DNA from: Longicatena caecimuris
GTDB taxonomy: Bacteria; Bacillota_I; Bacilli_A; Erysipelotrichales; Erysipelotrichaceae
Direction of reading: 5' to 3'
Assembly: GCF_004341945.1 (NCBI RefSeq)
Contig: NZ_SMBP01000023.1
Location: 1 to 51,805, forward strand
DNA: 51,805 nt
Below, in pieces: positions 4,829 through 29,071 of the stretch. A program made the translations under genes and the position numbers. The notes beneath the pieces are model-generated. The model saw only the letters and a list, made by a program, of their open reading frames with translations, did no database searches and was not told the DNA's origin. Position 1 is the stretch's first letter. Every line of letters begins with the position of its first letter.

Positions 4829-5037
4829 AGGGCATTCCTTCCTTCCATATCTTTTCTAAAGCCATATCGTTTCTTTTTCACATCAAGCATGATGAATGAA
4901 AAACGTTTCTTAAGGGTTCTAATAATCGGTTTACTTGATAACATCTTAAGAACCTCTTCACCTAACGGATAATCGTTTCTCTCTAGATCATGAAGGAAAG
5001 CTTCATCTAGTGGATGACAGCTTTCCTTGAAAATAGT
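4819..5037 (-). pseudogene. Possible gene remnant upstream of AraC gene
   Basis: An open frame of 72 codons with no good start lies between stops at 5038-5040 and 4819-4821. It overlaps the AraC start by 10 nt. It reads as plausible protein (FLHDLERNDYPLGEEVLKML followed by a Lys/Arg-rich stretch), but no ribosome site or family is recognised. It may be the 3' end of a decayed gene, or chance coding. An imperfect inverted repeat at 4997-5025 (GGAAAGC...GCTTTCC-type arms) lies in the same stretch. Confidence 0.2.
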
Positions 5038-5081
5038 TTAAGGTAAATTTCACAACTGGATAACCCTTTTGAAACGATATC

Positions 5082-5927
5082 TTATTTTTTAATATATTGA
5101 ATAGCGATACAGTCTAAGCCGGTATGGGCACTGATCACAGCACAAATCGTATTGACATGTACCTTTACCAAAGGACATTCCTTTTGGAATATATCAGCTA
5201 TTTCAGTAGCTTTATCCAAACAGTCTGAATGGATGACATAAATATCCCCTTCGCTGTTCTTCATGATATCACAAATCGCCTGCACAGCTACATGTTGTGC
5301 TTTTTTCTCGGTTCTTACTTTCTCATAAACATCAATCTTGCCCTTTGTCTTAGGTCCAATTGTTAAGATCGGTTTGATTTTCAACAAACTGGCTGCAGCT
5401 GCCGCAAGTGGTGTTAAACGTCCCCCACGTTTTAAATGTTGAATATCGTTGGGTAAGATCAAAGTGCCACTTTCTTTTACCTTATCTTCCACATATGCCT
5501 TGATAGCTTCTGGCTCCATATGCTGCTTGCTGCATGCTAATGCTAATAAAGCATCATGACACTGTAAATCACAAGTTGTGTAGTTTTCAATAATAGTCAT
5601 AGGTATGGCAAGATCTTCTGCACACATACGCATCGTATTATACGTACCGCTTAACCCTGAGGATAAAGGGACTGCGATAATATGGGTATAGCCATTTCGC
5701 TTAATTTCCTGTAGTACATCTTCAATTTCAGAAGTTAATGGCATGCTTGTTTTAGGTGTATGCTGCAACCTTAAGCGCTCATAGAGTTCCTGTGTTGTCA
5801 TATCCACACCATCCCGGAAAGAATCCGTGCCGTCTATGACCTCTAAAGGCACTACATATAACCCTAACGCTTTTCCACTTTCCTTTGTTAAAGCACTGCC
5901 ACTGTCGGTTAATACTGCAATCTTCAT
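5082..5927 (-). CDS. DegV family fatty-acid-binding protein
   Basis: A 281-residue DegV/FakB protein. The start at 5927 gives the canonical opening MKIAVLTDSGSALT and has AAGGTGG 5-6 nt upstream; the open frame extends 24 codons further but has no ribosome site there. Diagnostic motifs are TSMPLTSE, SSGLSGTYNT and LKRGGRL. FakB proteins hold a fatty acid while the FakA kinase phosphorylates it to an acyl phosphate for phospholipid synthesis. No FakA/Dak2 gene is in this window. A second DegV paralogue lies at 12382-13242, as is common in Firmicutes, where FakB copies differ in chain preference. Confidence 0.9.
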   Translation of the reverse strand: MKIAVLTDSGSALTKESGKALGLYVVPLEVIDGTDSFRDGVDMTTQELYERLRLQHTPKTSMPLTSEIEDVLQEIKRNGYTHIIAVPLSSGLSGTYNTMRMCAEDLAIPMTIIENYTTCDLQCHDALLALACSKQHMEPEAIKAYVEDKVKESGTLILPNDIQHLKRGGRLTPLAAAAASLLKIKPILTIGPKTKGKIDVYEKVRTEKKAQHVAVQAICDIMKNSEGDIYVIHSDCLDKATEIADIFQKECPLVKVHVNTICAVISAHTGLDCIAIQYIKK

Positions 5928-17903: not shown

Positions 17904-17951
17904 CAAAAAAAACGATATCTTGCATATCCATTACGAAATCAACATATCGTT
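17904..17951 (-). terminator. Original tmRNA terminator, now separated from ssrA
   Basis: On the minus strand AACGATAT and ATATCGTT arms are followed by eight T residues. Joining the two element ends would place this hairpin about 12 nt after the tmRNA CCA end. It is therefore the ancestral ssrA terminator. It now lies 10.7 kb from ssrA and just past and over the end of the serine recombinase gene. Confidence 0.8.
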
Positions 17952-19526
17952 AACCTTATATATGGTGGAGCCTAAGGGGAAGCAGTCGAACTCGGCGGCT
18001 TCCCCTTTAACAAAAGGGTCGCCGTCCGCTCCTTTCAGCATATCCCACGTGATTTCGGTCTTATCCTCCGAATACCACGAGGTCACGACCAGCTTCTCGT
18101 CGTAGAGATAAATCTTATCGACGAAATATTCCAATATCTTATCGCGCGTCTCCGGGTTGTCGAAGTCCGCGTGAAGGAACTTCTCGAAGTACGCCTTGAT
18201 GCTGTGCTCGTCCTCGCACAGCGAGACCTTGACGTTCTCGGCCTGTATCGCGTCGTTCAGGGATGCCTTCTGCGCCTCAAGCTGGTTCAGGCGCTCTATG
18301 AGGGTGTCGCTGAGCGCACCGCCCTCGATTGCCTTCATCAGGTTCGCGATACCCTTCTCGACCTCCTTGCGCTTCGCCTCCAGACCTTCGAGGTACCCCG
18401 TCTCCTTGTAATGCTCCTTGTAGTACACGGCGGCGTCCACCGCAAGGGACATCAGGTTCTCCGAGTCGTCGATGATGTACCTCAGGACGTCGGTCACGAG
18501 GTCCTCAATCCAGTCCTTCTTGACCTTCTTCTTCGTGCACAGCTTCTTCCGCTGGGCGGAGCAATAGTAGTAGTAATACGTGCGCCCCGTCTTGCTCGTG
18601 CCCGAGACACCTTGCATCGTCTCCCCACACTCGCCGCAGTACAGCTTCCCGGTCAGCCAGTAGCGAGGAGCGCCATCCTCATCCATTCCTCGCGCCCTCT
18701 GGGAACCCTTGCGCTTGTTCTCGGCGAGGCGCTTCTGCGCCCTGTCGAACGTCTCCCCGTCGACCAGAGCGGGCATCCCGCCGGGAACGACGAACTCGCC
18801 GTGCCTGTACTCGCCGATGTACGCGCGGTTCTTGAGCATCCTGTGCATCGTCTTCACACCGAAGGGGTTACCCCTCGACGTACGCAGACCGGCCTCGTTG
18901 AACTCGTCGCAGATGGACTGCATGGGTTCTCCTTCGGCGTACTTCGCGAACATCAACTGCACGAACGGCGCGGTATCGGGGTCTATGACGTACTTGCGCT
19001 TCTTGTCCACCTTCTCCGTCTTGAAGCCGAACACCTTATGGCCGTTGAAGTTCGCGTGCTCGGCGTTGAAGTCCATCCCGCGCTGGATGTGCACGGACAG
19101 GTTCCGACTGTAATACTCCGCCAGAGCCTCCATCAGCCCCTCGATGAGGATTCCCTCGGCGGTGTCCGTCGGGATGTTCTCCGCCAGCAGGTGTATCTCG
19201 CACCCCGCGTCGCGAATCGTCTTCTTCGCCATCGCCAGCACGTACTTATCGCGACCCAGACGGTCGGTCTTCCACGCAATGAGGGTGTTCGGACGGATTT
19301 TTGCGACCTCCGACAGCATAAGCTGGAATCCCGGACGGTCTTCCTTCGTGCCGGATATGGCCGCGTCCTCGTACTCTCGGACGATTTTCAGCCCGTGTGC
19401 GTCCGCCCATTCGTGGGCAAGCTCGCGCTGCTGTTCGATGCTCGCCTCGTTCTGCGAGTGGGAGGAGTAGCGATAGTACGCGATGGCGAGGTTATTGTCG
19501 TTGAGCTTCGTCTTCCTTCTCGCCAA
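17931..19526 (-). CDS. Large serine recombinase (integrase)
   Basis: A 531-residue large serine recombinase that should catalyse integration and excision. Residues 13-160 are the resolvase catalytic domain, with the nucleophile Ser21 in YYRYSSHSQ and the DRLGRD motif. Residues 180-285 are the recombinase domain. A zinc ribbon follows (CGECGETM ... CSAQRKKLC), then a coiled coil around 365-440. TTG at 19526 is the likely start because GGAGG lies 8 nt before it. The final 11 or so codons lie outside attL in host DNA, so the C-terminus is host-encoded in the integrated state. Serine recombinases rarely use ssrA, a target better known for tyrosine integrases. Confidence 0.93.
   Translation of the reverse strand: MARRKTKLNDNNLAIAYYRYSSHSQNEASIEQQRELAHEWADAHGLKIVREYEDAAISGTKEDRPGFQLMLSEVAKIRPNTLIAWKTDRLGRDKYVLAMAKKTIRDAGCEIHLLAENIPTDTAEGILIEGLMEALAEYYSRNLSVHIQRGMDFNAEHANFNGHKVFGFKTEKVDKKRKYVIDPDTAPFVQLMFAKYAEGEPMQSICDEFNEAGLRTSRGNPFGVKTMHRMLKNRAYIGEYRHGEFVVPGGMPALVDGETFDRAQKRLAENKRKGSQRARGMDEDGAPRYWLTGKLYCGECGETMQGVSGTSKTGRTYYYYYCSAQRKKLCTKKKVKKDWIEDLVTDVLRYIIDDSENLMSLAVDAAVYYKEHYKETGYLEGLEAKRKEVEKGIANLMKAIEGGALSDTLIERLNQLEAQKASLNDAIQAENVKVSLCEDEHSIKAYFEKFLHADFDNPETRDKILEYFVDKIYLYDEKLVVTSWYSEDKTEITWDMLKGADGDPFVKGEAAEFDCFPLGSTIYKVNDMLIS
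17963..17970. repeat. attL core repeat
   Basis: TGGTGGAG, identical to the tmRNA end at 28691-28698. The flanking bases on both sides differ between the copies, so the shared core is exactly 8 bp. It lies inside the 3' end of the recombinase gene. Confidence 0.75.
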
Positions 19527-19550
19527 ACAAATCACCTCCAAACTAATTAT

Positions 19551-20303
19551 TTAATCAATTATACAATTAGCTAATTCAAAAGAATGCCCGCCGCCCATAG
19601 GAGCGACGGGCTTTATACGCCAATACATGAGCAACTGGAGGGTGTATTTGTTTTGAAGTTTTTGCTTCGAAACCTTGAAATCCCACAACGTATCATCTGT
19701 TAGAAAGTCACCGTCTCCAGTAGCAACATAACCGGTATAGCCGCCTTCAAATGTCAGACCGTCCAACACCTTTGGTCCATACTGCTCGAAGAACCTTAAT
19801 GAACGCTCGACCATCACACGTATGTTCTCAATCGTATAACCATCAGGCGTAATATCCTCTACAGGGCGGTATGCCATAACTCCTGCTCTATATGCAGAAT
19901 CAAACCCAGATAGTTTTACAGCCGCGTCTATTGAGTTGTCATCCAGCCCGCGCACATTAGATATCAGTCTCTCAAAAAGCTCAAGCTGTTGAACAGTAGC
20001 AGCACCCATCTGGGAAATCTTAAACGCCTCTTCGGCCGAAGTCCCAGACATGAAACGCGTGAGATAGTCCACGGTGATGCCAACCAAACCCGGAGATACG
20101 TTTTCCTCTGGATGCAGTTCATCAATGCCGCCCCCGTCGAGCATCGTTTGCTCAAACTCCTTCGGTTTGATATAGCCGCCTCTCGGCTGCTTTATCTTGC
20201 TGATACGCTGCGTCACAGAACACATCCATCCGTTCGCAGCAATATCCTGTGGCGTCAGTTCGCCGCTCCTGAGCTTCTTCATTACGTCTTCTCTTGTCAA
20301 CAT
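19551..20303 (-). CDS. PD-(D/E)XK nuclease-like protein (putative cargo)
   Basis: A 250-residue protein. Its last 60 residues read as a RecB/Cas4-like PD-(D/E)XK core: ATGDGDFLTDDTLWDFKVSK gives the Asp and the D-x-K pair, and TLQLLMYW matches the following QxxxY-type helix. The N-terminal 170 residues are not recognised. The start at 20303 is fixed by GGAAGGAG upstream. Base composition is clearly more AT-rich than the mobilization genes beside it, suggesting a separate origin. It sits between the partition-type genes and the recombinase, a typical cargo position. A defence or DNA-processing role is possible but unproven. Confidence 0.65.
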   Translation of the reverse strand: MLTREDVMKKLRSGELTPQDIAANGWMCSVTQRISKIKQPRGGYIKPKEFEQTMLDGGGIDELHPEENVSPGLVGITVDYLTRFMSGTSAEEAFKISQMGAATVQQLELFERLISNVRGLDDNSIDAAVKLSGFDSAYRAGVMAYRPVEDITPDGYTIENIRVMVERSLRFFEQYGPKVLDGLTFEGGYTGYVATGDGDFLTDDTLWDFKVSKQKLQNKYTLQLLMYWRIKPVAPMGGGHSFELANCIID

Positions 20304-20322
20304 AGATTCCACTCCTTCCAAA

Positions 20323-20547
20323 TCAGTTTTCCGAATGTTCCTGAATCCACTCGTGGATAATCGCAGCAATCGTCGTTTCCTTCTCAGCCGCCATCATCTT
20401 GAGCGCCTTCTTGTCGCTCACCGTCAGGGACAGCGAGAGGGTCGTGCGCTTCTCGTCGGCGGCGGGAGCGTCGGCGGAAACCGTCTTCTCTATCTTCTTC
20501 TGCTCGGCCTCGCGGTCGGCAGCGTATTTCTCGAACATGTTCGCCAT
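20323..20547 (-). CDS. Small ribbon-helix-helix-type DNA-binding protein, ParA partner
   Basis: A 74-residue protein. The first 35 residues are charged and disordered. The last 40 (TLSLSLTVSDKKALKMMAAE and on to IIHEWIQEH) have the strand-helix-helix pattern of Arc/CopG proteins. It follows parA by 90 nt, so it is a likely centromere-binding ParB-type partner and repressor. AAAGGAGG precedes the ATG. A TCGACA-17-TATAAT promoter and two tandem TTTAATCA octamers lie directly upstream. Confidence 0.75.
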   Translation of the reverse strand: MANMFEKYAADREAEQKKIEKTVSADAPAADEKRTTLSLSLTVSDKKALKMMAAEKETTIAAIIHEWIQEHSEN

Positions 20548-20559
20548 GGCTTAGCCTCC

Positions 20560-20575
20560 TTTAATCATTTAATCA
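20560..20575. promoter_or_regulatory. Tandem TTTAATCA octamers
   Basis: Two adjacent exact copies of TTTAATCA (20560-20567 and 20568-20575). Single copies also occur at 19550-19557 and 21215-21222, in each case just upstream of a leftward gene (recombinase, ribbon-helix-helix gene, parA). The first copy partly coincides with the ribosome site of the 20547 gene. They are candidate operator or partition repeats. Confidence 0.45.
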
Positions 20576-20637
20576 TTTGTACAATTATACATCACTTTGT
20601 CTCATTTGTCGAGACCTAACGAACCTTTGACCTGCGG

Positions 20638-21195
20638 TTATTCAGCCGGGAACCCCGCAATCTCCCGCACCGTGTTCACCATCGACAGGGTCGCCTTCGC
20701 GGCCTTGCCCCTGCGGTCGTACTCGACGACGGACTGTTCACCGGCCCCCGCCTGAACGAACGCCTCGGACTGGGGAAGCGTGACCACCGTCTGGTCGCCA
20801 GCGAGACCCCCGAACCACTCCATGAAGTCACGGGACGCCTTGAAGCGGTTCCAGCCGTTCATGACATACACGATTTTCGCGCGGCTGTGCTTGAACACCG
20901 CCTTGCGCATGCGCATCAGCGGCTCGATGTCGCGGGATGTGGTGCGGGTGGGGATGACCACGACGTCGGCCTCCTTGAGCCAGTCGGCAAGCGCCTCCTG
21001 CAACGCCCCCGGCGTGTCCACCACGGCGACCTCAGCACCGTCGACCTCGCGGGTCTTGTGCAGGGTCCCGCCCTGCGCGTCCAAGTCGTAGAAGCTCATC
21101 GGGATTCCCGAGCGCTCGAACGAGAACGCAATCTCGTCGGCGACGAGGGACTTCCCGACGCCGCCCTTCTGATTGCAAACCAAAATCGTCTTCAT
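20638..21195 (-). CDS. parA: ParA family ATPase
   Basis: A 185-residue MinD/ParA ATPase. The deviant Walker A KGGVGKS lies at residues 10-16, and VAVVDTPG provides the Walker B region. It is short and lacks an N-terminal DNA-binding extension, as in type Ib ParA proteins. ATG at 21195 has GAGGTGA just upstream. With the small DNA-binding protein downstream it forms a plasmid-style partition pair. That is useful if the element replicates as a circle after excision. Confidence 0.9.
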   Translation of the reverse strand: MKTILVCNQKGGVGKSLVADEIAFSFERSGIPMSFYDLDAQGGTLHKTREVDGAEVAVVDTPGALQEALADWLKEADVVVIPTRTTSRDIEPLMRMRKAVFKHSRAKIVYVMNGWNRFKASRDFMEWFGGLAGDQTVVTLPQSEAFVQAGAGEQSVVEYDRRGKAAKATLSMVNTVREIAGFPAE

Positions 21196-21258
21196 ATCTC
21201 TCACCTCATATGTATTTAATCAATTACTCATTTACGTATTTAGTTACAGTCTTATGGT

Positions 21259-21292
21259 CCCTCGAAGGGTTCCATGCAAGACCCTTCGAGGG
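21259..21292. repeat. Perfect 12-bp-arm inverted repeat upstream of parA
   Basis: CCCTCGAAGGGT (21259-21270) and ACCCTTCGAGGG (21281-21292) around a 10-nt loop. Several other hairpins follow within 200 bp, including ACGATT/AATCGT and GTCGA/TCGAC. The 21196-21528 interval separates the divergent parA and 92-residue genes. It may hold both promoters and a centromere. Confidence 0.6.
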
Positions 21293-21528
21293 GCTTTCCG
21301 AAGCCCACCGTTCCATCGTCTCCTGAACCTCTTCGGAACGATTTTCGGGAATCGTCCCGTAAACGAGCCGAAGTCGATTTTTCGACGTTTCCGCCTCTTT
21401 CGGAGAGAGACCCTTGAAAGGTCTTTCCCAAGCCCATCTCAAGCCCACCCGCGCTCTCGACCGCCGATATGCCTTCGGCATCGGGTCGGCGCGTGAAGGA
21501 GAAGGCCCGAAAGAAAGGGAGACGAGAG

Positions 21529-21807
21529 ATGAACGGCTACGGCATCGAGACCTATGCGGATTTGGCCAAGACGGTCGGCGGGATGGTCCTCGCCAACGAG
21601 ATGGCGCATCGTCCGCTGGAACTCGTGAGCGGGGATTTCACACCATGGGACGAGATATTCCAGTGGTACATCATCAGCTACCCCGACTTCCTGATGGAGC
21701 ACACGGACGAGCCGGTGTTCCATGACGAGGAACTCGACCTGTACGTCTGGGGAATCACCCATTTCGGTACAGGCTGGGACTGCGTGCCCGCCCCCGAGAT
21801 TCACTGA
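21529..21807 (+). CDS. Hypothetical protein, only rightward gene of the element
   Basis: A 92-residue acidic protein with many aromatic residues (WDEIFQWYIISYPDFLMEHT, ELDLYVWGITHFGTGWD). The start at 21529 has AGGGAG upstream; the longer frame begins without a ribosome site. There is no signal peptide or membrane segment. It reads against all other genes of the element and ends in its own terminator. The compact, highly conserved-looking sequence suggests a real gene, but I do not recognise the family. Confidence 0.7.
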   Translation: MNGYGIETYADLAKTVGGMVLANEMAHRPLELVSGDFTPWDEIFQWYIISYPDFLMEHTDEPVFHDEELDLYVWGITHFGTGWDCVPAPEIH

Positions 21808-21808
21808 G

Positions 21809-21843
21809 AATGACGGTTCCCGCAAGGGAGCCGTCATTTTTTT
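21809..21843 (+). terminator. Intrinsic terminator
   Basis: AATGACGGTTCCC-GCAA-GGGAGCCGTCATT followed by a run of T residues. It stops the 92-residue gene before the convergent relaxase gene. Confidence 0.9.
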
Positions 21844-23356
21844 ACTCCCCGAGGTGCTTGTCCTCGTCGCGCACGCGCTCCGTCGCCTCGGCCGTCTGCT
21901 GCATCTTCGGCGTGACGCCGCGATGCTTGACGGTGCGGGCGGCCTCGTTGTCCAGAGCCTCCTCGGCGGCCTTCAGGCGCTTCTCGGCGTCCCACATGTT
22001 GCCGCGTGATTCGTAGAGACGACGCTCGGCGTCCTCCTGCATCCTGTGGCGCTGGTCCTCCATGAACTGGAGCATCATCATGCGGAACATCCGGGCCATC
22101 ATGTCCGACATCATGCGGGAGACGGGGTCGGTCCCGGTCCTGCTCGCCAGCGTGTACAGCCCGAATCCCATCGCGAGGCTTGGGCAGGCTCCCTTCAGGG
22201 CGTCCCGTGCCTCCTTGGAATCGTGGAACTCCCTGCGGGCGCGTTCCACATCGGCGCGGAGCTGGGCGAGGGCGTCTTCCGGGTCGTTCTCTGCATTCGC
22301 GAGCGCATCGTACTGCTCCCCGGCGATAGGCATGCCCTCGCTCTTCCTGCGACGGGCGTACACGCTCTTCAAATCGGAGGCCATGTCCCTCACGTCGGAC
22401 TCGCTCGGTTCGTACATGTCGGAATCATGCTGGGCAGGGGAATCCTGCTGCGTATCCTCCATGCCGACCATCTGGGAATCCTGATTCGGGGCCGGCGCTG
22501 TCTTCAGTTCCTCGCGGGTCTGCTGTTCCTGCTTCTCCTCGAAGAACCGCTCGACGCCCTCCTTCGTCAGGTCGTCTGCGAGGTTCGAGGCGCGGCGCTT
22601 TCGGGTCCTACGCTTCGGGCCCCATTCGTCCCGCATCTTGTAAGACCATCCGACGGACTTCTCGCCCGTCTTCTTGTCGACTTTCGATGTCTCATTGAGG
22701 GTCACTCCGGCGAACGCAAGACGCTGCTTGAAATCATCAATATCGCTGGCGTCGTCCCTTGCTTTTGCCACCGCATCGCCGAGATGGCGGTCGAAGGAAT
22801 CGTGCTCGAACGAGTCCCGTTTCTCCGCCCATGTCGACTTGTCCTTGTCCGCTCCTATCACGGACAGACCCCACTCGCGGCTCAGCTCGTCGTTCACCGC
22901 CTGCACGCGCGGGGCGAACAGGCTCGTGTCGTCCTTGTTGATGACCTGCCCGGTGCGGCAATCGTGGTTCGCGATTGTCGCGTGGGCGTGGACGCATCCG
23001 CCCTCGCCGTCCACGTGCATGGTCACCCAACATGGGGAGTCGGGGGCGAGTTCATGGCAGAGCAGGTAGGCGTGCTCCATGCCCCTCTGCACATCATCGG
23101 GATTGCCCGGATTCAACTCGTCGAGCGCCCATGAGACGCGAAGCTCGTAACCCTCGTTGACCATGTTCGGATGGACGGCATGAAGCCCGTTGCAGTACGC
23201 GATGAACTCACCTCGGGAGGGCATGTCGCCCATCTGGGCGGCGATGCGGTCCGTCCCGTTTTGCAGGTGGTCGCGTCTGCGCTTTCCCTCTCCGAACTCG
23301 GTGTAGGACATGCGGCCCCGGACGTCGGGCAATGCCTGCACATACGTCGTCGACAT
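21842..23356 (-). CDS. Relaxase/mobilization nuclease
   Basis: A 504-residue MOB relaxase that should nick oriT and pilot the strand in conjugation. The N-terminal nuclease domain (1-170) has candidate nucleophile tyrosines Tyr5 and Tyr18 and the metal site His114, His123, His125 in VHAHATIANHD. The remainder is charged, helical and partly coiled-coil, with a Met-rich stretch near 415-440. Its start overlaps the mobC stop by one base (TGATG), so the two are coupled. The arrangement matches MOBP-type relaxases, though the clade needs a profile comparison. Confidence 0.88.
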   Translation of the reverse strand: MSTTYVQALPDVRGRMSYTEFGEGKRRRDHLQNGTDRIAAQMGDMPSRGEFIAYCNGLHAVHPNMVNEGYELRVSWALDELNPGNPDDVQRGMEHAYLLCHELAPDSPCWVTMHVDGEGGCVHAHATIANHDCRTGQVINKDDTSLFAPRVQAVNDELSREWGLSVIGADKDKSTWAEKRDSFEHDSFDRHLGDAVAKARDDASDIDDFKQRLAFAGVTLNETSKVDKKTGEKSVGWSYKMRDEWGPKRRTRKRRASNLADDLTKEGVERFFEEKQEQQTREELKTAPAPNQDSQMVGMEDTQQDSPAQHDSDMYEPSESDVRDMASDLKSVYARRRKSEGMPIAGEQYDALANAENDPEDALAQLRADVERARREFHDSKEARDALKGACPSLAMGFGLYTLASRTGTDPVSRMMSDMMARMFRMMMLQFMEDQRHRMQEDAERRLYESRGNMWDAEKRLKAAEEALDNEAARTVKHRGVTPKMQQTAEATERVRDEDKHLGE

Positions 23357-23799
23357 CAGACATCACCTCCCGTGATTCCGCCATGCAAATCGGCTCGAAG
23401 CTCCTTGACCTCGTCCGACAATCCTTCGATGGATTCCCTCAGGCTTTCGAACGCCTTCTTGTCCGGTTCCATCTTGATTTCCTCAAGCATGCCCATCCCT
23501 TTCACGCGGGCGTTGAAGGCCCGTGCAATCTGGTTGATGTTCACGCCGATTCGGTTCAATTCCATCAGCATCCGGTCGAGCTGCGGAGTGTCCGCAACGA
23601 CCTCGTGCTTCGTGTGGGAACCGGCGGAGCCGTACAGCGCGCCACGCAGATAATTCGAGCGCGTGCGTCCGCCTCTCTTCCCATCCAAAAGGGCAAGCTC
23701 CTCGGCGTTCATGCGCACCTGAATAACAGTCTCGCGACGGTCCTTCTTGTAGTGCTGGCGGGTCGCCTTGCCGCTTCTTTTCTCAACTTCTTTTGCCAT
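23356..23799 (-). CDS. mobC: MobC family mobilization protein
   Basis: A 147-residue MobC/relaxosome accessory protein. The N-terminus is basic. VIQVRMNAEELALLDGKRGG is the ribbon-helix-helix part, and LMELNRIGVNINQIARAFN is the strongly conserved MobC signature. AAGGAGG precedes the ATG at 23799; the longer open frame lacks a ribosome site. It binds oriT and helps the relaxase nick. An inverted-repeat-rich region lies directly upstream. Confidence 0.92.
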   Translation of the reverse strand: MAKEVEKRSGKATRQHYKKDRRETVIQVRMNAEELALLDGKRGGRTRSNYLRGALYGSAGSHTKHEVVADTPQLDRMLMELNRIGVNINQIARAFNARVKGMGMLEEIKMEPDKKAFESLRESIEGLSDEVKELRADLHGGITGGDV

Positions 23800-23882
23800 G
23801 CAAAACACCTCCTTATTCGCAATCCAAATGCGATGCTCATTTCTCGTCGCACTTTGCTGCAATCTGCGAAACGGGGAAGGGA

Positions 23883-24066
23883 GCAAGCATTGACCATGTA
23901 CGTACAAAATGCGAATATCGCATTTTTCCCGCCATGGTCAGCTTGCGAGGGGACGGCGAAGCCGCCCCCTTCGAACCCCCGAATCTGTCCCTTCTGATTC
24001 AACATGTTCTGTCCGACAGAACCACGCGACCGAATGTCGGACACGGGGACGACTCCCCATGTCCGA
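23883..24066. other. Candidate origin of transfer (oriT)
   Basis: A cluster of hairpins upstream of mobC. Outer arms GCAAGC-AT-TGACCATG (23883-23898) and CATGGTCAGCTTGC (23933-23946) enclose a perfect AAAATGCGA/TCGCATTTT stem (23906-23926). Next come GGGGACGGC-GAA-GCCGCCCCC (23949-23969), TTCTGTC/GACAGAA (24007-24021), and a two-tier stem TCGGACA+GGGGA / TCCCC+TGTCCGA (24037-24066). There is no gene between 23800 and 24080. Position beside mobC and relaxase, and nested repeats, are typical of oriT; the nick site is not identified. Confidence 0.55.
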
Positions 24067-24080
24067 ACCTCCGGCGTGTT

Positions 24081-24422
24081 TTAATCGAAGGGACGGCGCT
24101 CGGGATTGAACCCCTCGACGCCGAGAGAACCGCCGTCGCCGTCCGAAGAATCGGCGTCGCCCGCAGGTTCGCGCACGACTGCGTTCGGGTCACCATCGGA
24201 AGGATTTCCGCCGTTTCCATGTCCGGCGTCCTTGTGCAGTGTCTTGACGAACGCGAGCACCTCCTCGGCGGAACCCATTTCCTTCACTTCGGGGAAGACC
24301 GTCACGAGGGCGTCGGCGTACGCCTTGGTCTTCGCAGCCTGCTTCTCGCGGCGCAACTTCTTCGCCTGAGCCTCAAGCTCACGCGCCTTCTTGTCTATGT
24401 CATCGAATCTCTTGATAGCCAT
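24081..24422 (-). CDS. Hypothetical mobilization-region protein
   Basis: A 113-residue protein. The first 45 residues are strongly charged and helical (DKKARELEAQAKKLRREKQA), likely a coiled coil. The next 25 contain a short ordered part, VVFPEVKEMGSAEEVLAFV-like. The last 45 are acidic, Gly/Asp-rich and disordered. Small proteins of this pattern often precede mobC genes on mobilizable plasmids. The ATG at 24422 has AAGGAG upstream. The function is unknown. Confidence 0.65.
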   Translation of the reverse strand: MAIKRFDDIDKKARELEAQAKKLRREKQAAKTKAYADALVTVFPEVKEMGSAEEVLAFVKTLHKDAGHGNGGNPSDGDPNAVVREPAGDADSSDGDGGSLGVEGFNPERRPFD

Positions 24423-24478
24423 AATCAATCACTCCTTATCAATCTGAATCTGTCTCCTCGCTCCTGCCGTCTTTCGCG

Positions 24479-24778
24479 CTACATCCAAAGCTGAATCGCG
24501 CCGATGACGAAGGGCAAGGCGAGCATCACCAAAGCGACGGTAATCAGCGCCTTCGCGACCCTGAGTCCGAGGACATCGACCTTCGACTTGCCGGGCATCG
24601 AGCGCTCGGGAATCAGCTTCTCCATCGCCTTGAGGTGCCGCTCGTAAAGCTCCCGTTCCTCCGCCGTGAGCGTCCCCTCGTCCGCCTTCGTGCGGAGACA
24701 GGAAAGCTCACCGTCACTTAGAACGTCGACGTTCGCATTGTCGACAACCTTCTTCTTTGCCTTGTAAATCTGACTCAT
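24479..24778 (-). CDS. Small single-pass membrane protein
   Basis: A 99-residue protein with a cytosolic-looking N-terminal part and one C-terminal membrane helix (about 74-98: ALITVALVMLALPFVIGAI). Residues 29-49 carry the pattern R-x-KA-x2-G-x-L-x3-ER-x-LYE-x2-L. The same pattern occurs in the next protein upstream (24793-25503), so the two are related there. AAAGGAGGTG precedes ATG 24778. The family is not recognised; coupling to a helper transfer system or entry exclusion are possible roles. Confidence 0.65.
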   Translation of the reverse strand: MSQIYKAKKKVVDNANVDVLSDGELSCLRTKADEGTLTAEERELYERHLKAMEKLIPERSMPGKSKVDVLGLRVAKALITVALVMLALPFVIGAIQLWM

Positions 24779-24792
24779 CTCTCGCACCTCCT

Positions 24793-25503
24793 TTAATCTT
24801 CAGCGAGGTCTTTCACTGCGTTTCCGCCATATCCGCCTCCGAGGTCTTCGATTATCTGACGACCGTCATATCCGTTCCCGTCATACGTACCGGGGTCATA
24901 CGACGAATCTTCCTTCTGTTTCAAATAGACCTCGAAGTTCCACAGCGCCTCATCGCTCCAGATATGACGGTGCACCTCGGTCATGTCGGACGTGCCCCGA
25001 AGGCGACTCACCACCTCGTCAAAGAAACACTCGTCCGGCGGAACCTGCCCGGAAGCGAGCCTCGCGACTGAAGCGCGCCCGCTTTGGATAAAACTCCCCA
25101 AGTCCCAAGAACCGCCTCCAGACAGCAGCCTCATCGTGTTCGCGATGCTGGACAACACCTTGTTCGTGTCGGGCAGCTCGCCCGTCAGCTTGTAGCCAAT
25201 TTCATACGTCGTGTACGGGACCAGCAGAATCGATTCCGACAGCTTGCATCCCGTCATGGCGTACATCCCAATCAGGGCCACGAGCGCCAGCGATATGACG
25301 CCGCGCCGAATCGCGCCCTTCTTCAACCGCCTCTCCGACAACCTCCCCATGGACCTCGCCTTGGAGGCGTTGACGTCCGCCTCGGCGAGGGCGCACGACT
25401 GAAGATAGTCCTCGTAAAGCAGCCGTTCGTTCTCATCGAGACCCCCGTGGCGTGCTTTAAGGCGCCACTGGGCAATCTTCTCGCTTTCCCATCTGTAACT
25501 CAT
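24793..25503 (-). CDS. Membrane protein of unknown function
   Basis: A 236-residue protein. Residues 14-34 hold the R-x-KA-x2-G-x-L-x3-ER-x-LYE-x2-L pattern shared with the smaller neighbour. A basic stretch then leads to one membrane helix at about 64-84 (GVISLALVALIGMYAMTGC). The C-terminal 150 residues would be outside and end in a Gly/Tyr/Asp-rich tail. The TGC after the helix resembles a lipobox but is too far from the N-terminus to be a normal signal. AAGGAGG precedes the ATG. It is 13 nt after the primase gene, in the same operon. Confidence 0.65.
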   Translation of the reverse strand: MSYRWESEKIAQWRLKARHGGLDENERLLYEDYLQSCALAEADVNASKARSMGRLSERRLKKGAIRRGVISLALVALIGMYAMTGCKLSESILLVPYTTYEIGYKLTGELPDTNKVLSSIANTMRLLSGGGSWDLGSFIQSGRASVARLASGQVPPDECFFDEVVSRLRGTSDMTEVHRHIWSDEALWNFEVYLKQKEDSSYDPGTYDGNGYDGRQIIEDLGGGYGGNAVKDLAED

Positions 25504-25516
25504 ATCCTTTACCTCC

Positions 25517-27328
25517 TTATTCGCTTTCCATTTCATTGGCGGTCGTTTCTCCGGACACCATGTATGCCGGAACCGCCGCCGTCTTATCGCGAAGCAATCC
25601 GCGATAGCGCTCCTTCACCTCGGGCTGACATACACGCATCGGGTCGCTTCCCCGGTAGTCGTGATTCATCCAGTTGCGAAGCTCGTATTTGAGAATCAGC
25701 GGCTCCGCGCAATCCATGTGCCCCTGCGAACGCACCGCGTTCTCCGTGCACGACCATTCGGGCCAGAGCGAGAGCAGGGCGGCCAAATCCTTCTTGAACC
25801 CGTACTTGCCGATAGGGCGGCCCGAAGGCTGATTCTTCTGCATCCATGCGCAGTACAGGTCGTATGCGAAATCCCACGGGAGCAAATCCCATGAAACATC
25901 GGAAAGGACCTCCTCGCAGAACTGGCGAATCGGGTCGTTGTACGTCTTGAAATCCGCCAGCATGTCCTTGCAGCTCTGCGGGATGCTCAACTCGTAATAG
26001 TCCGTCTCGTAGAGCAGGCGGTAGAGCACGTACTCAAGAACCTCCCTGCGATGCAGGTAGTCGTTCTTGATGTACTTGCGCTCGTGCCCTTCGAATCGCT
26101 TCTCGAACGGAATCACGAGCAATCGCCTGTACATGGACTCTGACTTGTCCTTGAGCTTCGGGAACTCGTTCACACACTGAATCATGAACCCACGGAACAT
26201 GAGCGTCCTCGGGTCTTTGAACTTGCGGTTTATCTGGAACGGGTCATGCGTGATTACCGACTTGAGCGCCGCCGCATCGTCAACGAAGGTGCCCGTGTCG
26301 TTCTCGTCGGTGATAATCGCGGAAACACGGCAGAGGGGTTCCAGCATGAACTGCTGGGAGAACGCCTTCAGGGGCACCGAGGCCCAAGTCCCTCGACCGC
26401 AGAGATTGCGAATTAGGGTACACAGCGTTCCCTTGCCGTTGTTGCCCGACATGGAGTAGAACCATGCGGTCTTGTTCCAGCTCACTGCGGGGCGAATCGT
26501 CGCGCCCATGACCTCCCAGAGCAGGTCGACGACTTCAGGGTCGTCCGAAAGCTCGTTCATCCACGAGACCACATCCCAATCCGTACCGTCGTCATCGTTG
26601 CGGATGACCGGATTCTGGGCATTCGGGACGAAATCGACCTTCGACTTGCTCGTGAACACGTACTCCGGGTCGAAACCGAGGAGCACCTTGCTCCCATAGT
26701 CGAAGATTCCGTTGTTGACCGGAATCAAATCACGGTCGGAACAGCGCTCGACCCGCTTGCAGATGGAACGCAGGATTGCGACCGTCTCGTCCACGCCTCG
26801 CAAGGACATCGTTTTGTCGTACGAGCGAATCAGGCGCTCCAGAGTCTCATCTCGGGTGTCGTAGCATCCCTCGTTCTCGCCGTCGGTCTGGTAGATTCCG
26901 ATATCGAAGTTCCCCTCGTTCTCGGCCTTGTTCCAAAGAATGCCCACGCCGTGGTGCAACTCCCTAATCAGAATCGCAATCTGCAAAGGGTGGAGCGCCG
27001 TCAGGCGGCGATAGCGCGCCTCCGGTTTCTTCGCATCGGGATAACGCTCGCTCTTCTTAGCGGTCGGGGGCACGTTCTCATCCGGACGCCCCAAGTTGTA
27101 CTTCTCGATGCAATCATTTGTAATTTCAAGCAACTCGACCTTGACGGTCGAGAAATCAGGCGACAAATCTGTGTCGATATCCGACAGATACGCCAGCGTC
27201 ACGGCCTCAAGCAGGTCGTCGTACGCTATGGATTGACTTTCGCACATATCTGTGATATCATTTATACAGTTGTTAGGTACCGTCCCGTAAGCGTCGCCAG
27301 CGCCGGGGCGGTTTTCTTTTTGCCTCAT
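25517..27328 (-). CDS. P4/D5-type primase-helicase (SF3), putative Rep
   Basis: A 603-residue replication protein. NNGIFD near residue 206 and the region before it match the D5_N domain. The superfamily 3 helicase follows, with Walker A SGNNGKGT (294-301), AIITDENDTGTF as Walker B region and a QCVNEFPKLKDKSESMYRRL sensor segment with arginine finger. An N-terminal prim-pol domain is not evident; residues 1-100 look unrelated. Such proteins start replication of phage-plasmids and satellites at repeat-rich origins. A candidate origin with many GGCACAAC repeats lies at 28072-28391. AAGGAGGTG precedes the ATG. Confidence 0.88.
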   Translation of the reverse strand: MRQKENRPGAGDAYGTVPNNCINDITDMCESQSIAYDDLLEAVTLAYLSDIDTDLSPDFSTVKVELLEITNDCIEKYNLGRPDENVPPTAKKSERYPDAKKPEARYRRLTALHPLQIAILIRELHHGVGILWNKAENEGNFDIGIYQTDGENEGCYDTRDETLERLIRSYDKTMSLRGVDETVAILRSICKRVERCSDRDLIPVNNGIFDYGSKVLLGFDPEYVFTSKSKVDFVPNAQNPVIRNDDDGTDWDVVSWMNELSDDPEVVDLLWEVMGATIRPAVSWNKTAWFYSMSGNNGKGTLCTLIRNLCGRGTWASVPLKAFSQQFMLEPLCRVSAIITDENDTGTFVDDAAALKSVITHDPFQINRKFKDPRTLMFRGFMIQCVNEFPKLKDKSESMYRRLLVIPFEKRFEGHERKYIKNDYLHRREVLEYVLYRLLYETDYYELSIPQSCKDMLADFKTYNDPIRQFCEEVLSDVSWDLLPWDFAYDLYCAWMQKNQPSGRPIGKYGFKKDLAALLSLWPEWSCTENAVRSQGHMDCAEPLILKYELRNWMNHDYRGSDPMRVCQPEVKERYRGLLRDKTAAVPAYMVSGETTANEMESE

Positions 27329-27340
27329 AACCTCACCTCC

Positions 27341-27619
27341 TTAATGAATCCCGTGAGACACCAGATATTTCTCGAACGTCTCGCGGTGAATACGGCGACT
27401 TCGAATCGTGTCAGTCATCACTACGAAGTCCGCGTCATCGGCCTTCATCAGCGAACGCACGCGCCCGATTCCTATTTCGAACAGGGTCGACGCCTCGGCA
27501 CTCGTCAGGAACGGCTTCGCCTTCAGAGCCGTGATGTAGGCCGCGTATTCCTCCATCGTCAGCTCGCTCCCGCCGAGAATCTTCTTCGTGAACCCCTTCT
27601 TCTGTTTTGCATTTGCCAT
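27341..27619 (-). CDS. xis: Excisionase-like winged-helix protein
   Basis: A 92-residue protein. SAEASTLFEIGIGRVRSLMK, followed by a VMTDTIRSRRIHRETFEKYL wing, closely follows the layout of Tn916 Xis. It would bind near the element ends and direct the recombinase toward excision, or act as operon regulator. ATG 27619 has AAGGAGG 9 nt upstream; 20 more codons upstream have no ribosome site. It is the first gene after the structured leader RNA and lies 12 nt before the primase gene. Confidence 0.8.
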   Translation of the reverse strand: MANAKQKKGFTKKILGGSELTMEEYAAYITALKAKPFLTSAEASTLFEIGIGRVRSLMKADDADFVVMTDTIRSRRIHRETFEKYLVSHGIH

Positions 27620-27651
27620 AAAGCAACCTCCTTTTTTCTGCCTATAAACGC

Positions 27652-27704
27652 AAAAAAGCGGCGAACCAGAATCCAGCAATCAAGCTGAAATCTGATTCGC
27701 CGCT
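27652..27704 (-). terminator. Very strong terminator between leader RNA and xis
   Basis: On the minus strand AGCGGCGAA (27704-27696) pairs with TTCGCCGCT (27665-27657). The stem continues with UCAGA/UCUGG and CAGC/GCUG pairs and is followed by six T residues. It lies before the xis ribosome site, so genes of the operon can only be made by read-through or another promoter. Confidence 0.88.
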
Positions 27705-27895
27705 CGTCACGTTCGTGCGATTGCCGTCCTATTTGGACGGGTAGACGCTGTTGCCTCCCGCATCGGCTCGTCAGACCGACGCAGTTTCGAGGGCGGACCC
27801 TCATCGGCTTCCTCCCGAGCCTAAGGCTCGGTCTCAGATAGGCTCACGTCGGTATTTCCCGGCCGCTATCCATCGGCAATCATGTCGCGAATATA
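27652..27895 (-). ncRNA. Structured leader RNA or sRNA of unknown class
   Basis: The predicted transcript from the promoter at 27901-27929 to the terminator is about 240 nt and packed with helices. A closing stem joins GATTGCCG (27881-27874) to CGGCAATC (27726-27719). Inside are a GATAG/CTATC arm (27870-27837) with inner GGC/GCC and CGG/CCG pairs, a perfect CCGAGCC-UUA-GGCUCGG hairpin (27831-27815), and GAGGG/CCCTC (27802-27789) inside a CCGAU/GUCGG pair. A further hairpin at 27740-27724 shares CCG with the closing stem, so alternative folds are possible. It resembles a riboswitch or attenuator ahead of xis-primase. I do not recognise the class, and no ORF explains it. Confidence 0.6.
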
Positions 27896-27900
27896 TGAAT

Positions 27901-27929
27901 ATTATACAACATGAAATGACGGAAAGCAA
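27901..27929 (-). promoter_or_regulatory. Main leftward promoter of the element
   Basis: On the minus strand TTGCTT (27924-27929), a 17-bp spacer and a perfect TATAAT (27901-27906). It drives the leader RNA and, beyond its terminator, xis and the primase operon. Confidence 0.7.
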
Positions 27930-27961
27930 TAGTAAACGTCATATAATTGCAGGTCAGGGGC

Positions 27962-28007
27962 TTGTCCGACGCTGTTTCCCGCCATAAATGAGCGGAAACA
28001 CCGACAA
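27962..28007. repeat. Two-tier hairpin upstream of main promoter
   Basis: TTGTC (27962-27966) pairs with GACAA (28003-28007), and TGTTTCC (27973-27979) pairs with GGAAACA (27994-28000). It lies between the promoter and the repeat array, in a stretch without genes, and could be part of the origin or a regulator site. Confidence 0.45.
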
Positions 28008-28071
28008 AAATTGCTCGTCTCAAAAATCGTCGTACAGAAGAAAAGGGCGGATTGTCGAAGCTCGAAACTTT

Positions 28072-28391
28072 GGCACAACTTTGTTGTGCCGGCTTTTTTT
28101 CGACAACCATCGGTGCTCCAGCTCGATTGCACAAACCGTGGCACAAACTGCAAAACCATGTTGTGCCGGGGTTTTCCCGCATATTCTCGATGCTGCGCGG
28201 CGGTTGGCACAACTTGCACAACATTTTTCAAGTCTTATTTATATGACCTATATGCACATGAAAGGCTATATATTTATTTTTTCTCGCGTACGTAAGGGTT
28301 AAAAAAAGTTGTGTTGTTGTGCCAATCAAGTTGGAACCCCGAGAAATTGCGGGAAATGTCTGGCACAACAAAGTTGTGCCAAAAAGTTGTG
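28072..28391. other. Candidate replication origin with symmetric GGCACAAC repeats
   Basis: Seven exact GGCACAAC/GTTGTGCC copies (28072, 28083, 28160, 28206, 28316, 28362, 28373) and about five near copies surround an AT-rich core (28223-28307). The layout is mirror-symmetric. Outer 19-bp palindromes GGCACAAC-TTT-GTTGTGCC (28072-28090) and its exact reverse complement (28362-28380) flank two 30-bp inverted arms (28160-28189 and 28340-28369, 24 of 30 bases matching). Inner repeat pairs flank the core. The element encodes an SF3 helicase, so this is the likely oriV. No gene is seen between 27930 and 28690. Confidence 0.65.
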
Positions 28392-28524
28392 ACATGCAAA
28401 AAACCACCGAAACGCATGCCCTCCCCACCGTGTACTCGGAATCTAATTCCGCATCGAGCGAAGCGAGATTGCTGGTTGTGCTCCCACATCCTCTTCAGAA
28501 TGCCCTAAAAGCCGTTTTAAGCCA

Positions 28525-28564
28525 CAAAAAAGCCCGAAGGGTAGACGAGTACCTCTTCGGGCTT
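28525..28564 (-). terminator. Second terminator downstream of ssrA
   Basis: On the minus strand AAGCCCGAAG and CTTCGGGCTT, a perfect 10-bp stem, followed by six T residues. It backs up the terminator at 28604-28631 and shields the origin region from tmRNA transcription. Confidence 0.85.
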
Positions 28565-28603
28565 AAAACGTCTTAAAACGCAAAATACGACGTCAGGAAA
28601 ACG

Positions 28604-28631
28604 AAAAGGGGACGCCCTAAAGGGCATCCCC
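28604..28631 (-). terminator. Element-derived terminator now used by ssrA
   Basis: On the minus strand GGGGATGCCC-TTTA-GGGCGTCCCC followed by TTTT, 60 nt past the tmRNA CCA end. In the excised circle it would lie exactly at the stop codon of the recombinase gene, so it is probably that gene's native terminator. Confidence 0.82.
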
Positions 28632-28690
28632 AAATCTATACACAAGCGCGAACTCATTCTTGATGAAGAAGAGTTCGACGCTTCCTCTTT

Positions 28691-28698
28691 TGGTGGAG
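28691..28698. repeat. attR core repeat (tmRNA 3' end)
   Basis: TGGTGGAG; on the minus strand CTCCACCA, the last eight nucleotides of tmRNA including CCA. Matches attL at 17963-17970. Confidence 0.75.
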
Positions 28699-29071
28699 GT
28701 GGCGAGAGTTGAACTCGCGTCCAGAAACAGCCCCACGTACAGACATCTACAGTTTAGTCCATTACCAATATTCAACAGGTAACAATGGACAGCTCCTATT
28801 GAAGGTGTTCAATTTATTTTCGTGATCAATCCCTTGAACTAGAATTGAACCTTATCCTTCGTAAATGAGATGCTCATCTAGTATGCCAAAAGACAACATA
28901 CTAGCGGCAGCTGCGAACCTATGTCGGTTATTAAGCAGCAAAAGCCATTCTCTGGTTTGCACCAAAGATGTTAGCTAATTTAGTTTTTCCGTTTAAATTT
29001 AATTGGTTATTACGTAACCACTCGACTGCCGTCTGTACCAAGCGTATCCCTGTCGAAACCAGTACACCCCC
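28691..29071 (-). ncRNA. ssrA: tmRNA
   Basis: A complete one-piece tmRNA of 381 nt that rescues stalled ribosomes with SmpB. The 5' end GGGGGTG (29071-29065) pairs with CACCTCC before the ACCA end, forming the acceptor stem. GGTTTCGAC follows at the 5' side, and the T-arm GAGTTCAACTC lies near the 3' end. The tag frame runs from 28990 to 28934 and encodes GKTKLANIFGANQRMAFAA followed by tandem TAA stops (28928-28933); the AFAA end differs slightly from the usual ALAA. Its 3' end is the integration target of the mobile element and is fully restored. Confidence 0.96.

Follow-up and report, generated by a model that had tools for sequence, protein, structure and literature searches.

Excerpts of PMC6092414 describe PICI origins, which are among the closest known systems, as an AT-rich region flanked by two iteron sets, and report that PICI pri-rep-ori segments replicate autonomously. 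The SaPI Rep reads the origin iterons through its C-terminal domain, according to part of PMC7581432. Here, we analysed an iteron array in Longicatena caecimuris, in a DNA stretch of 51,805 nucleotides (the window). Based on sequence comparison, the array is very probably a vegetative origin of replication (oriV) of the kind found in SaPI/PICI satellites, and the element that carries it is integrative and probably mobilizable. An oriV in an integrative element had been proposed in an earlier note on this DNA, and the proposal is supported by the array position and geometry kept in relatives and by the defined ends, 8-bp core, integrase, Xis and MobC of the element.

The GC content goes from 38% to 57% between about 17.9 and 28.7 kb, and the integrative element there is 10.7 kb long (~17971-28690; 57% GC), in a host of 38% GC. 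Its right boundary is the ssrA 3' end (28691), its left boundary is inside the 3' end of the serine recombinase gene, and the 8-bp core TGGTGGAG is present at both ends (Table 1). The locus has the integrase and the att sites at a specific target that define an integrative element. The ssrA 3' end is also the target in four related loci (L006, L028, L030 and L037), and these elements have the ssrA-adjacent sequence (GCGAAGCGTCGAACT / AGGAAGCGTCGAACT ...) in common with the window. The integrase reading frame crosses attR (17931-17970); hence, its last codons are chromosomal and different in each integrated copy.

Table 1. Coordinates of the array and of the element that contains it.
Feature	Position	Strand	Remarks
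attR core TGGTGGAG	17963..17970		
Large serine recombinase (integrase)	17931..19541	-	last codons beyond attR, in chromosome
ParA-family ATPase	20638..21204	-	optional cargo among related elements
Relaxase-like protein	21842..23356	-	Pfam Relaxase E 8e-4, under curated cut-off
MobC	23356..23907	-	above cut-off
Rep, P4-family / D5-type SF3 helicase	25517..27328	-	proposed array-binding initiator
Rep residues 481-540, winged-helix region	25709..25888	-	
xis, Tn916-Xis-like excisionase	27341..27619	-	probable ATG start 27619
Structured leader, terminator-like hairpin	27638..27885	-	ahead of xis-rep
Iteron array, proposed oriV	28071..28394		iteron GTTGTGCCA / TGGCACAAC
Outermost opposed pair, rep side	28071..28091		
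Outer iterons, rep side	28127..28168		28127 -, 28139 -, 28160 +
Inner iteron pair, rep side of core	28205..28222	-	copies 28205/28214, 9 bp apart
AT-rich core, proposed melting site	28223..28307		about 72% A+T (28222-28306)
Inner iteron pair, ssrA side of core	28308..28324	+	copies 28308/28316; 28308 degenerate, 3 mismatches
Opposed iteron pair, ssrA side	28361..28381		-/+, 12 bp apart
attL core TGGTGGAG, ssrA 3' end	28691..28698		
ssrA (tmRNA), integration target	28691..29071	-	

The remaining genes of the element are small ORFs. One of these (21469-21807, plus strand, in the opposite orientation) has 62-78% matches in L006, L028, L029, L031-L036 and L038 and a 98% match in L030, including loci with no relaxase and integrase match; a PHROGs search gave no match for it. 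The leader ahead of xis-rep is highly structured (z -7.2), with a long hairpin and T run at its end. It is without an Rfam match, the tmRNA being the sole match in an Rfam scan of the window, and could possibly be an attenuator or a P4-immunity-like RNA. L005, L006, L028 and L029 have a different conserved leader with three pairs changed on both sides. A hairpin between attL and the array (GCATCGAGCGAAGCGAGATTGC, 28451-28472) is kept with small changes in L005, L006, L028, L029 and L030.

In the array, we found seven exact copies of GGCACAAC in 28072-28380, counting both strands. Each outer 19-mer (28072-28090 and 28362-28380) is the perfect reverse complement of the other, and the inner 30-bp arms, in their best pairing (28160-28189 with 28340-28369), agree at 24 of 30 positions. 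All of this is in agreement with the earlier note. Its description of the repeats as symmetric about the AT-rich core is correct for the inner arms, which share an axis at ~28264.5 with the core, but not for the two outer palindromes, whose centre is 28226. Hence, the outer palindromes do not mirror each other about the true axis. The repeat is naturally described as the 9-mer GTTGTGCCA, which has the opposite reading direction to GGCACAAC, and the array is intergenic, chance ORFs aside.

Across the whole window, GGCACAAC occurs eight times relative to 1.24 expected, and 0 of 100 shuffles reached eight. With one mismatch allowed, there are 30 copies vs 30.3 by chance, so there is no excess and the clustering alone is unusual. 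In a 420-bp segment picked as the best, one 8-mer (at most one mismatch) is present 12 times relative to at most 6 times in 60 dinucleotide shuffles made of that segment only.

The proposed initiator, Rep, matches TIGR01613 (P4-family primase C-terminal/helicase domain) with an E-value of 1.8e-52, and among solved structures it is closest to the SaPI5 primase-helicase (profile E 1.4e-90; Foldseek E 8e-31). Like the cognate Rep of SaPI/PICI-type origins, it is a D5/P4-type SF3 helicase related to the SaPI Rep. The earlier note named an SF3 primase-helicase; no primase domain was recognised in Rep. The SaPI5 alignment begins only at chain residue 327 of 797; hence, priming would be carried out by the host or by another protein. 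In the AlphaFold model of Rep (mean pLDDT 84), residues 481-540 form a strand, two helices (485-499 and 508-521) and a second strand (525-533), which is the predicted fold expected of a winged helix, a name that is our reading of the model.

Relatives of Rep were found in six genome contigs and, at any similarity level, in 21 plasmid records. Of 396 genomes sampled from the class to which an Atopobiaceae MAG belongs, 10 had a Rep relative, as did 1/391 and 1/394 genomes of two other classes, these two being the seeding genomes themselves. Among 145 genomes (its own and 144 host relatives), the Rep search matched its own genome alone (0/144 relatives). A single-protein scan of viral contigs gave no match. 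With the array DNA as query against 41 genomes (its own and 40 host relatives), we obtained the self matches and one short, chance-like hit elsewhere in its own genome. Since the iteron letters are not conserved, a DNA search with the array misses relatives. Rep was the sole window protein matched by tblastn in 19/19 loci, a count that is partly by construction, as these loci were found through Rep.

The enriched words upstream of rep vary from element to element. Aligned by orientation, the iterons of the relatives are 9-mers, nearly all with a CA end: GTTGTGCCA in the window, AGTGTGTCA in L028, AATGGAACA in L030, ATTGGAACA in L005, AA[AG]TGGGCA in L006, TTTTCCACA in L037, AGCGAGACA in L007, TGTGGTACA in L008, ATTGGTACA in L010, CGTGGTACA in L040 (a Streptomyces plasmid) and GGGCTGCCA in L031 and L036. 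The CTACC[AG] type of L032-L035 is the weakest of all, and the automatic consensus is poor for L033. Outside this map are near-copies (L009 of L008, L029 of L028), loci in which no array was found (L038 and L041, for the latter upstream of rep) and L039 at a contig edge; L042-L046 were examined for enriched words only.

Array words exceeded all 60 shuffles in 11 of 18 loci, the top word of L037 being an A/T run, and the shuffle test gave no array in the other seven (L031-L036 and L038). Inner pairs spaced by 9 bp are nevertheless present in L032, L034, L035 and L036; none were found in L038. The genome G146 has two Rep relatives (L006 and L036) with different iterons, an arrangement compatible with, though not proof of, different iterons letting related elements coexist. 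G283 also has a pair of Rep relatives, but no array could be identified for the second of them (L038). In the Streptomyces megaplasmid (L040, about 4950-5400), nine CGTGGTAC are found within 450 bp upstream of the Rep relative, with the same geometry.

Conservation of the array in related elements had been set beforehand as a test, and we found that position and geometry are kept and the repeat letters are not. One geometry is built from different words: inverted pairs spaced by 9 bp lie on either side of the AT-rich core and are followed, after 45 bp, by an opposed pair whose members are 21 bp apart. Measured from the innermost pairs as anchor, the inner pair is 8-9 bp apart, the opposed site is at 52-55, and the forward site is at 73-76 or 85-86. 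For 11 elements (22 half-arrays), there are 164 half-array matches across iteron groups vs a null mean of 31.4 (sd 5.3, maximum 50 in 2000), and the left and right halves are mirrored within elements in 13 cases vs 1.8 (maximum 6 in 2000). This set leaves out L010, L031 and L033, for which inner pairs were not available at both flanks of the core, as well as the near-copies of L032 (L034 and L035); for L030, the first of two candidate inner pairs was taken. Since the elements share ancestry, these matches show a conserved homologous layout rather than independent origins.

Both the window and its relatives have the array upstream of rep. Satellite-like relatives of Rep (27-34% identity) were found in viral contigs at 55 distinct loci; 50 of these have the array 3' of rep, and none has it upstream. 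The same offsets are seen in the 15 of these 50 loci that have recognisable inner pairs (381 matches vs a null of 74.7, maximum 147 in 1000), the 35 loci without inner pairs on both sides having been dropped from this test. In EcCICFT073, a functionally tested E. coli PICI origin, the spacings 9/45/23/11 agree, but they run outside-in, in reversed order relative to the centre.

L030 is a near-identical element in the Coriobacteriia-class genome G304, with flanks of 58-59% GC. The window and L030 differ in three segments: the array, the Rep body with the following ORFs, and the ParA module. Identity is 97-99% for the leader and xis, which are between the array and Rep, 38-52% for the array region, 91% for the Rep start, 49-84% for the Rep body, and mostly 97-100% for the mob and int genes. 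Near-identical elements (mostly 97-100% in the shared DNA) thus reside in a host of 38% GC and in a Coriobacteriia-class genome of 58% GC, and the GC content of the element matches the latter. Judged by identity and composition, this likeness shows a recent transfer over a wide taxonomic distance.

The L030 iteron is the L005 iteron except for one base. Residues 481-540 of the L030 Rep are 67% identical to L005 and 38% identical to the window, compared to 72% and 70% for residues 201-480. Among 13 elements, Rep pairs with the same iteron have excess identity at 481-540 (0.174, 0/2000 label shuffles) and at 497-533 (0/2000 label shuffles), a slight excess at 301-400 (0.051, about 1%) and none in the other segments; this test was run after a continuous one, with post hoc groups defined once the iterons had been seen, and has only five same-iteron pairs, three of them among related actinobacterial records. 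The continuous test (partial Mantel, iteron vs Rep-segment distance) was not significant, with 112/500 permutations. Judged from these alignments, the repeat letters and the DNA-reading part of Rep apparently change together. Since L030 differs also in a third segment, the ParA module, it could be by chance that array and Rep have both changed.

The same comparison bears on other functions for the array. It might be an operator through which a repressor, or Rep or Xis, controls the promoter of the xis-rep leader, with no replication start. The array is indeed upstream of the leader-xis-rep transcription unit, and origin iterons often autoregulate too; however, the array is ~320 bp long with an AT-rich core and has a two-sided geometry in common with satellite origins 3' of rep, and Xis is 100% identical in the window and L030 despite their different iterons (GTTGTGCCA vs AATGGAACA). 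Hence, it is not Xis that reads the array, and we consider an operator improbable.

Equally, a parS-like centromere for ParA and an adjacent partner protein might be expected from the ParA gene of the element, which is 89-90% identical in L028 and L029, and from the ParA module being one of the three segments in which the window and L030 differ. However, iteron identity follows a Rep region, no ParB/RHH-type partner was recognised beside ParA, and L030, L006 and L037 have arrays but no ParA by tblastn. Hence, nothing ties ParA to the array, and ParA was rejected as its partner; the ParA pair, which had been brought forward as array-linked evidence, does not serve as such. A centromere is thus highly improbable. 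That the array is an oriT or a recombination-arm region of the relaxase, Xis or integrase is hardly credible: it is within about 600 bp of the attL end and oriT regions contain inverted repeats, but integrase, relaxase and Xis are 98-100% identical in the window and L030 while the array sequence is unrelated, and L031-L036 have no tblastn match to relaxase or integrase, with L032 and L036 still keeping the inner-pair geometry beside rep.

With the array as oriV, the serine recombinase and Xis would excise the element. By analogy with the SaPI and SCC work, Rep would then bind the GTTGTGCCA iterons via its C-terminal winged-helix region and form a pair of helicase rings facing each other on the inverted arms, the AT-rich core would melt and be unwound in both directions, and host factors would carry out priming and extension. 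A further possibility, which we put forward tentatively, is that the array and the winged-helix region of Rep form an exchangeable origin-specificity cassette on a constant backbone, an old module of satellites, mobilizable elements and plasmids that lets related elements co-replicate. If so, elements would exchange or re-evolve array and winged-helix region jointly, and related elements could replicate side by side in one cell with no competition for the same initiator. Such arrays occur here both in elements that carry mobilization genes and next to rep on an actinobacterial megaplasmid.

The oriV reading connects one class of mobile elements in gut-type bacteria with a replicon that phage satellites are known to use, and predicts which protein segment reads which 9-bp word. 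The natural same-word and different-word pairs are material for studying initiator specificity and incompatibility. The near-identical elements in the 38% GC host and the 58% GC Coriobacteriia genome also show that such an element crosses wide taxonomic distances.

Among known systems, phage P4 (alpha, ori and crr) has in common with the window the P4-family primase C-terminal/helicase domain (TIGR01613) of Rep. P4 has short iterons; its alpha protein has a fused primase, and its ori and crr are separate sites. The oriV of SGI1 is similar in that a mobilizable island has its own iteron oriV and rep and replicates after excision, according to part of PMC7433901. It is unlike the window array in that it lies 3' of the initiator gene and consists of four direct iterons of 17 bp with a DnaA box. 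The SGI1 initiator is of a different kind from the window Rep. SCCmec (Cch2) also combines a serine recombinase with a self-loading SF3 helicase whose C-terminal domain binds the iterons, as described in excerpts of PMC7581432. However, the Cch2 origin is 3' of its gene and has three direct iterons, whereas the window array is two-sided and upstream, and the window integrase is far under the cut-offs of Ccr models.

SaPI/PICI origins have several features in common with the array: an SF3 Rep, short iterons that often have a CA end and form two inverted sets on either side of an AT-rich region, and the 9/45/21 geometry of the window array and the satellite-like loci. By its gene content, the element is not a PICI: a whole PICI carries an integrase and a repressor/AlpA of PICI type and genes for phage interference or packaging, and the genes recognised here are those of a serine recombinase, MobC and, by a weak match, a relaxase. 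A primase domain, too, was not recognised. No satellite packaging, interference or repressor gene was recognised among the proteins scanned; a 115-aa, coiled-coil-like ORF gave one weak match to a head protein (E 0.0024), which was taken as chance. PICI-type origins are immediately 3' of rep, which is not the case in the window or its relatives; the window array is separated from rep by the leader and xis, at a distance of about 0.7-1.1 kb on the upstream side. Hence, we class the array as a variant that would work like a satellite origin and not as a PICI origin. A literature text search found no description of this family. What appears to be new here is a satellite-type replicon with its origin upstream of rep, inside an element with mobilization genes.
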